A stretch of DNA of 64,000 bases from Halorussus salinus (GTDB lineage: Archaea > Halobacteriota > Halobacteria > Halobacteriales > Haladaptataceae). Below, piece by piece: positions 46,887 through 48,682 of this stretch. The translations under genes and the position numbers were made by a program. The notes beneath the pieces were generated by a model that saw only the letters and a list, made by a program, of their open reading frames with translations, did no database searches and was not told the DNA's origin. Position 1 is the stretch's first letter, and each line of letters begins with the position of its first letter. The stretch spans positions 203,259-267,258 of the forward strand of contig NZ_ML974127.1 in NCBI RefSeq assembly GCF_004765815.2, read 5' to 3'.

Positions 46887-47140
46887 TCGCGCTCCGCGAA
46901 AGCGACTCTGACTCCCGAGACGACGCTGACTGCCCGGAACGAGACTCCTCGTCTTCACTAAGATTCCTCGCCCTCAATCTTACTTGGAGGAGTCTTTCTA
47001 CGGCTTAGTTAAATTCGGGACGGTGAAATTTTCTTACTGCGCATAGATTCGAGTCTCCGTTACACTCGCGAGTCGCTATGAAGCGTTTCGCGGAAATCCA
47101 CAGACGCACCTTTTTAGCCTCTCGCTCCTACCACCCGCGT

Positions 47141-48016
47141 ATGCTGGACCTCGCGGTCGCCTACCGAGAGGAGACGTTCGAGCGCATGCGCGACCCCCTC
47201 GCCGAGCGGGGTATCGCCGTCCACCACGTCCCGTCGGACAGTCGGACCATCGCGCTGTCGGACCCGCCGTGGGACCCCGACGAGTTCGACGCCGGGTTCG
47301 TCTACCCCTCGCGGGCGATGGAGGGCGGCGTCGTGGACGCCCTGCTGGACGTGCCGTGGGTCAACGGCCGCGAGGAGGTCCTCACGTCGCGCAACAAGGC
47401 TGGCGTGATTGCGCAACTGGAACGCGCTGGCGTGCCCGTCCCCGAGAGCGTCCTCGTCTCGAACCCCGCCGACGAGTCCGACCTGCTCGACGCCTTCGAG
47501 CGGTTCGACCCGCCGGTGGTCGTCAAGCCAAACTCCACGACGCGGGGCGTCGGCGTGGCGAAGGTCGGCGACGCCGACTCCTATCTCGGCGTGACCGACT
47601 ACCTCGATTTGGTTCACGACTACCGGGCGACCGGCGACAAGTCGTTTCTCGTGCAGGAGTACCTGCCCGACGCGACCGACTACCGCGCGATGGTCGTGGA
47701 CGGCGAGTGCGTCGGCGGCGTCGAGCGCCGGATTCCGGACGACGCCGACAGCGACCGCTGGAAGCACAACGTCCACCGCGGCGCGGTCGCGACCGGCGTG
47801 GACCTGCCCCGCGACCTCCGGGCGCTCGCCGAGGAGACCGCCGCCGCGCTCGGCATCGACTACCTCGGCGTGGACCTCCTCGTGACCGACGAGCGGGCGG
47901 TGGTCAACGAGACCAACGCCCGGCCGACCATCGACGCCGCGACGAAGTACGACGACGGGTTCTACGACCTCCTCGGCGACCTGATTCGACGGACGGCCGA
48001 GCGAAGAAAAGACTGA
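47141..48016 (+). CDS. RimK-like ATP-grasp ligase
   Basis: 291 aa from MLDLAVAYREE; ctttttagcc about 27 nt upstream supports this start over an in-frame ATG at 47078. ATP-grasp features: RNKAGVIAQLERAGVPVPES, VVVKPNSTTRGVGVAKV (ATP loop Lys), FLVQEYLPDATDYRAMVV, and VNETNARPT (Mg ligands). Members add amino acids such as glutamate to proteins or cofactors (RimK, MptN, LysX). Convergent with the gene at 48344. Substrate not determined. Confidence 0.85.
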   Translation: MLDLAVAYREETFERMRDPLAERGIAVHHVPSDSRTIALSDPPWDPDEFDAGFVYPSRAMEGGVVDALLDVPWVNGREEVLTSRNKAGVIAQLERAGVPVPESVLVSNPADESDLLDAFERFDPPVVVKPNSTTRGVGVAKVGDADSYLGVTDYLDLVHDYRATGDKSFLVQEYLPDATDYRAMVVDGECVGGVERRIPDDADSDRWKHNVHRGAVATGVDLPRDLRALAEETAAALGIDYLGVDLLVTDERAVVNETNARPTIDAATKYDDGFYDLLGDLIRRTAERRKD

Positions 48017-48028
48017 CTCCTCGTCATC

Positions 48029-48184
48029 TTAGAAACGTATAGATTTCTAAAAGAAGCATAAAAATTGTCAAAGCACTCATTCCGAATGCTCCACCCCGGC
48101 GCGTTCGGGCGCGGCCTCCGGGCCGCGCCCAGCGCGCGAGGGACGGCGGCCGCGGATGCGGCCGCCGAGGTTGGGGAGGAGTGA
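48029..48184 (+). ncRNA. Candidate structured RNA and/or 32-residue leaderless ORF
   Basis: Promoter-like cataaaaattg (48057-48067) follows a 7-bp palindrome TTAGAAA/TTTCTAA (48029-48050). From about 48086 the RNA can fold into an outer stem CTCCACCCC (48089-48097) with GGGGAGGAG (48173-48181), one A-A mismatch. Inside are two 10-bp perfect hairpins: GGGCGCGGCC-TCCG-GGCCGCGCCC (48107-48130) and CGGCGGCCGC-GGAT-GCGGCCGCCG (48144-48167). ATG at 48086 also opens a 32-codon frame ending at 48184. It lies between convergent genes; 48185-48343 shows no gene. Confidence 0.5.
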
Positions 48185-48343
48185 GGCCTGCGGTCGCGGT
48201 GCGGGGCGGTTGCGGGGCGGCAGACTCCTTGGAGTCGGCAGTAGCCAGCTTCTTCTCGGCAAATTTCGTGTCGTGTCGCTCCGACTCACTTTTCGCTCTA
48301 CCGCGTCTCGCCGCCACGCCACCACCGACCGGCACGTCCTCGT

Positions 48344-48682
48344 CTACTCCTCGAACTCGAAATACAGGTCGTAGTGGTCCCCACAGCCCGGATTGAACGC
48401 CGCGCCGCAGTCCGGACACCGATGCTCGCCGTCCACGAATTCGCGGGGCGTCAACCCCGAACCGCAGACGCCGCACAGCACCGCCGCCTCTCCACTCTCG
48501 ACCGACAGGCGCTCGGCCTCGTGGTCCGCCACGGCGTCGTGACACCGGAAACAGGGGAAATACGCCTCACAGCAGGCGAATCGCAGGGCGACCACGTCAC
48601 GCTCCGAATCGTAGTGAGCGCATCGCGTCTCCGGGCCGACCTCGACGCCGCGGATCGACTGCCCGTGAATGTTCCGTTCCAT
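48344..48682 (-). CDS. CHY-type zinc finger protein
   Basis: 112 aa. CAHYDSERDVVALRFACCEAYFPCFRCHDAVADH is the CHY pattern (CxHY...CC...CxxCH; core CAHYDSERD at 22-30 and CFRCHD at 44-49). VLCGVCGSGLTPREF and CPDCGAAFNPGCGDHY add further zinc pairs. Binds about three zinc ions and is probably a structural or redox protein. Convergent with the ATP-grasp gene. Confidence 0.88.
   Translation of the reverse strand: MERNIHGQSIRGVEVGPETRCAHYDSERDVVALRFACCEAYFPCFRCHDAVADHEAERLSVESGEAAVLCGVCGSGLTPREFVDGEHRCPDCGAAFNPGCGDHYDLYFEFEE

Follow-up and report, generated by a model that had tools for sequence, protein, structure and literature searches.

What is the strongly folding sequence found in Halorussus salinus where a RimK-like ATP-grasp gene and a CHY zinc finger gene converge? 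A preliminary description of this intergenic region, which is part of the window (the whole 64,000-nt stretch of DNA analysed here), had proposed a promoter followed by a closed, three-way-junction RNA, a microprotein gene or both. All the sequence features that it named are present in the window: a TATA-like CATAAAAATTG at 48057-48067, a 32-codon frame running from the ATG at 48086 to the TGA at 48184, a putative operator made of TTAGAAA (48029-48035) and TTTCTAA (48044-48050), and two hairpins in an outer stem. The small TTAGAAA...TTTCTAA palindrome (48029-48050) sits directly after the stop codon of the ATP-grasp gene. The + strand of positions 48060-48190 has a minimum free energy of -87.3 kcal/mol (z = -6.4, with none of 200 dinucleotide shuffles as good); by this measure, the two hairpins are real. 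The - strand of the same segment also folds beyond chance (z = -5.3 against dinucleotide shuffles).

A BLAST search of the organism's own genome with positions 48015-48260 returned about 40 other places, with 70-96% identity, that cover 48089-48258. The sequence from 48093 to 48192, together with a tail that extends to about 48257, is a single member of a family of dispersed intergenic repeats, and both hairpins are part of the repeat. The repeat is roughly 170-200 bp long overall, with a core of about 100 bp plus the tail. The window copy and its surroundings comprise the following features.

47078-48016, + strand: RimK-like ATP-grasp gene (Pfam), upstream flank, outside the repeat.
48086-48184, + strand: 32-codon open frame, judged a chance frame since it is absent as a conserved frame in other copies.
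48093-48192, + strand: conserved core, matched by covariance model R1 with 72 bits (E 2.7e-11), the window copy itself being among the 34 copies used to build that model.
48100-48138, + strand: hairpin 1, from the fold and from covariation in own-genome and class-wide copies.
48100-48105 with 48133-48138, + strand: lower stem of hairpin 1 (fold).
48107-48116 with 48121-48130, + strand: upper stem of hairpin 1, with the loop TCCG at 48117-48120 (fold).
48139-48143, + strand: conserved AGGGA linker, GCGAGGGA block (alignment A1).
48144-48167, + strand: hairpin 2, of the plain GC type in the window copy (fold; types and covariation).
48169-48188, + strand: invariant single-stranded block GGTTGGGGAGG, then nGTGAGGC (near-invariant columns in alignment A1).
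48189-48222, + strand: GCGGT-rich spacer of variable length (comparison of 3' tails).
48223-48257, + strand: 3' end motif, consisting of the palindrome GACTCCTTGGAGTC (48223-48236) followed by GGCAGTAGCCAGCTTCTTCTC; 33 of 37 own-genome copies have one of two 3' end motifs, and the 3' boundary is approximate.
48344-48682, - strand: CHY zinc finger gene (Pfam), convergent, downstream flank, outside the repeat.

The upper part of hairpin 1 (48107-48130) reads GGGCGCGGCC-TCCG-GGCCGCGCCC, with a UNCG-type loop, and hairpin 2 of the window copy (48144-48167) reads CGGCGGCCGC-GGAT-GCGGCCGCCG. The aligned copies have a common architecture, namely GGCGCG, hairpin 1, GCGAGGGA, hairpin 2, GGTTGGGGAGGnGTGAGGC, a GCGGT-rich stretch and one of the two end motifs. 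Rfam searches yielded only tRNA over the window and no match at E <= 0.1 over seven element loci, and we found no matching repeat described in the open-access literature on haloarchaeal repeats and REP sequences.

Comparison of the copies indicated that the TATA-like box, the 32-codon frame, the outer stem and the TTAGAAA palindrome are local features of the window copy. The dedicated promoter that had been proposed is not shared, as a TTTAWA sequence is found upstream of only 3 of 218 copies, and no other promoter motif common to the copies emerged. The supposed 9-pair outer stem gave 3.2 expected pairs with the native flanks and 2.9-3.7 with swapped upstream flanks. Since swapping leaves the predicted stem the same on average, it is no feature of the family. 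Relatives showed no counterpart of the putative operator TTAGAAA/TTTCTAA in their orthologous intergenic regions.

In contrast with the outer stem, hairpin 1 is strongly conserved by compensatory change. In 34 own-genome copies, 95% of the cells of the alignment pair, and double-changed cells number 43, versus 17 in shuffles. In 85 copies from across the class, the numbers are 203 versus 60, in an alignment that was fitted to the structure and with kinship among copies inflating the double-change counts. The class-wide covariation score is 0.467 (0.198 in shuffles), not one of 500 shuffles reaches it, and slid registers all fall far below the true register. Thus, the conserved fold stands, but an RNA limited to one locus and closed by a stem of 9 bp is not supported; of the two kinds of conservation to be looked for in relatives, the hairpin pairs covary whereas the codons of the frame are not kept. 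The ratios of G.T wobbles to A.C mispairs are 41:3 in the own-genome copies and 181:7 class-wide. This excess indicates that it is the + strand that folds, as RNA or as single-stranded DNA.

Hairpin 2 is a swappable module of several types, one of which is the plain GC hairpin found in the window. A second type consists of a pair of GAGNANCGCA boxes with a small loop between them, closed by GAY/RTC. In this antiparallel GAGxAyCGCA...GAGy'Ax'CGCA module, the x and x' positions are Watson-Crick partners in 74 of 75 distinct sequences (20 in shuffles), and y and y' in all 75 (23 in shuffles), so that + strand pairing is conserved in this form of hairpin 2 as it is in hairpin 1. The bases between the x and y pairs are near-constant, with A.A and G.A/A.G apposed, which indicates a helix with purine mismatches, probably with tandem G.A pairs to judge from the sequence pattern. 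A third type, GAGCGA...GAGCGA, is similar in character. In the loci studied, 72 of 76 occurrences of the GAGxAyCGCA module lie within elements, a proportion that gives no genome-wide rate because the loci were chosen for the element. In other halobacterial families, GGGACTGAAAGGGGC is often present about 20-80 nt after the core (L129-L138, L144 and L147), and several of these loci have a long GC-rich inverted repeat ending with GGGGCTTTC after the core, apparently a further structured domain.

We determined copy numbers with the covariance model, scoring up to 150 candidates per genome, so that the counts are lower bounds. Of 18 Halorussus species, 17 carry the element, with at least 123 copies in the genome of origin and from 7 to at least 148 in each of the 16 others; the remaining species has none. 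Among the congeners, counts as different as 0, 7, 28 and at least 148 occur. Copies are also carried by plasmids of three other Halorussus species, with no annotated gene beneath them. In the sister genus, matches were found in 8 of 9 genomes (1-35 copies each), and a class-wide sample gave matches in 83 of 242 genomes and 35 of 73 halobacterial genera. The hosts include, by name, Halosimplex, Haladaptatus, Haloarcula, Haloarchaeobius, Halococcus, Natronomonas, Halolamina and Haloterrigena. With regard to viral carriage, none of six IMG/VR pattern matches was confirmed by the covariance model, and there were none in phages.

Each of the 40 own-genome loci that we examined lies between genes, with the element oriented at random relative to its neighbours. 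Two tandem copies are found at L012 (G000:C1:430412-430646); the run of up to 17 G where they meet may have arisen in assembly. In one sister-genus genome (G019), at least 15 pairs of copies are arranged head to head (- then +), 30-33 nt apart, as in L103 (1501-1774), L108 (1501-1777) and L104 (1345-1624), an arrangement not seen in Halorussus.

The presence of the element at a given site is polymorphic between species. At the window site, two congeners (G010 and G002) have the whole element, G007 has a remnant of its 3' tail, and G004, G011 and G016 lack it. For eight more sites, we located both flanking genes in up to five congeners each and searched the gap with the covariance model. The nine sites gave 35 comparisons: the element is full in 11, with one weak match of 31.9 bits among them, partial in 3 and absent in 21. 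All 14 orthologous copies present have the same orientation as the own-genome copy, which under independent random insertion has a chance of about 2 to the -14; shared copies are thus most simply explained by common descent. Between orthologs, 25 pairs of hairpin 1 have changed and 19 of them still pair. One own copy (L017) and its ortholog in G004 (L285) have an unusual hairpin 1 in common, while their hairpin 2 types differ, a pattern that suggests exchange among copies. In Haloferax volcanii, gene conversion proceeds efficiently (PMC11276520).

The absence of the element at an orthologous site may represent loss rather than an empty site. In an empty-site comparison at L023, the flanks are heavily diverged, and neither exact ends nor a target duplication could be defined. 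Among the own-genome copies examined, which are those that most resemble the covariance model or the window copy, the highest identity for any pair is 92% over 98 nt. Neither result captures an insertion event or demonstrates current movement. In L023, a block, GGCCCTTCGTTTCCRGTGGA, lies on the reverse strand just upstream of the element; it is kept in the intergenic region of four species (L023, L294, L295 and L297), while its surroundings are not.

Dispersed intergenic copies, numbering from 0 to at least 148 per member of the genus, in both orientations, without a gene and with hairpins on one strand, fit a transposase-free mobile repeat. We therefore consider it probable that the element, a Halobacteria-wide, non-coding dispersed repeat, is of the REP/PATE-like, transposase-free mobile kind, and that it spread in trans and was then inherited. 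By analogy with those systems, we infer that it is, or was, mobile without an enzyme of its own. A putative enzyme supplied in trans would recognise the folded + strand, as single-stranded DNA or a transcript, by its hairpins and the G-rich GGTTGGGGAGG block, and copies would be inserted into intergenic DNA. They would then persist by descent, swap parts through recombination or gene conversion, and be removed by deletion.

As to the enzyme, a RAYT/IS200 (Y1) mobiliser was rejected, as no Y1_Tnp match was found in four copy-rich genomes (G001, G003, G005 and G008), which hold 98 to at least 148 copies. We likewise rejected the idea that the element represents TnpB ends or an omega-RNA: in 32 TnpB/Y1 loci (102 kb), there were 3 strong model matches, at about the genome-wide density and in no fixed position, and hence no enrichment. 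In two Halorussus species, an element lies a short distance downstream of what seem to be orthologous, TnpB-like chromosomal genes (loci L310 and L331).

The closest described kind in haloarchaea is that of the palindrome-associated transposable elements (PATEs) of Haloquadratum walsbyi (PMC3119063), whose palindromes resemble the ends of IS605-type transposons. Like PATEs, the element is haloarchaeal, devoid of a transposase, too short to code for one (a core of about 100 bp and a tail, without a conserved frame) and present in more than 100 copies per genome. PATEs have palindromes close to their ends and show no terminal inverted repeats, and some of their families are heterogeneous. Our element may resemble them in this, with hairpin 1 towards its 5' boundary and GACTCCTTGGAGTC towards its 3' boundary, both boundaries being approximate. 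A further PATE trait is the lack of a target duplication, for which the flanks of our element at L023 are too diverged to compare. In contrast with the IS605-type ends of PATEs, it occurs at only background density by TnpB, and Y1 is absent from copy-rich genomes. The same account describes the small mobile repeats SMR-A of Haloquadratum, also numerous, about 110 bp long, transposase-free and without a known mobiliser, but these differ in that their terminal inverted repeats are prominent and other mobile elements are their targets, neither of which is seen here. REP/REPIN sequences and their RAYT (TnpA-REP) enzymes are comparable as dispersed intergenic palindromic repeats, and the head-to-head pairs of G019 recall REPIN doublets (PMC3116915, PMC8266576). 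However, the unit described here is archaeal and far larger, containing two hairpins as well as an invariant G-rich block, and its high copy number needs no Y1 transposase. The element may by analogy work like a PATE or a REP, yet we file it as neither. Bacterial repeats of the ERIC/BOX type are also intergenic, in either orientation, with a conserved fold and no known mobiliser. These traits are shared, but the sequences are unrelated, and the element is archaeal, with a swappable second hairpin that holds a covarying non-canonical module.

The main alternative is a large family of functional structured RNAs, transcribed and folded to bind a protein or partner RNA, with the copy number maintained by the host. 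We keep it in consideration because the compensatory change is exceptionally strong and confined to one strand, and pairing is kept in orthologous copies. Nevertheless, we regard it as rather unlikely, as the copies have no common promoter, vary in position and orientation as well as in number (0 to at least 148 between members of the genus) and are often absent at orthologous sites. A more speculative proposal, and a doubtful one, is that of a class-wide archaeal RNA family that would spread or act via a folded transcript, as a SINE-like retroposed RNA or a multicopy regulatory RNA, with GAGxAyCGCA/GAGy'Ax'CGCA as a new helix motif (conserved A.A and G.A positions) and GGTTGGGGAGG as a binding site. 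To our knowledge, a SINE-like retroposed RNA would be the first in archaea. It is improbable that the element is instead a DNA-level structural or protein-binding site of the BIME/REP kind, kept for a role with nucleoid proteins or topology; its intergenic, orientation-independent placement would suit such a site, and hairpins can form from single-stranded DNA too, but the strand asymmetry of the wobbles would be unexpected for a double-stranded site, and copy numbers are very uneven between congeners.

A transcription terminator or 3'-UTR stability element might be envisaged from the window copy, which lies between convergent genes and 3' of the ATP-grasp gene. According to gene calls made with a simple home-made codon-model gene finder, however, the neighbours at the 40 loci are found in all arrangements (12 divergent, 11 ++, 10 -- and 7 convergent), which makes this very unlikely as a general role. 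Finally, a 32-codon microprotein gene with its own promoter can practically be dismissed: the frame and the TATA-like box exist in the window, but an open frame with an in-phase ATG is found in only 4 of 218 copies, core lengths are spread over the three phases rather than kept modulo 3, and the box is not conserved.

The probable mobile repeat described here represents an abundant class of intergenic sequences in Halorussus that extends to roughly half of the halobacterial genera sampled, and, within a dispersed repeat, it displays almost perfect compensatory change in a helix that includes non-canonical pairs. For haloarchaeal GC-rich intergenic hairpins in general, copy number should be checked before they are called sRNAs or microproteins. 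The element also makes two questions testable: by what means enzyme-less repeats move in genomes that lack Y1 transposases, and whether the intergenic repeats of archaea are maintained as RNA.
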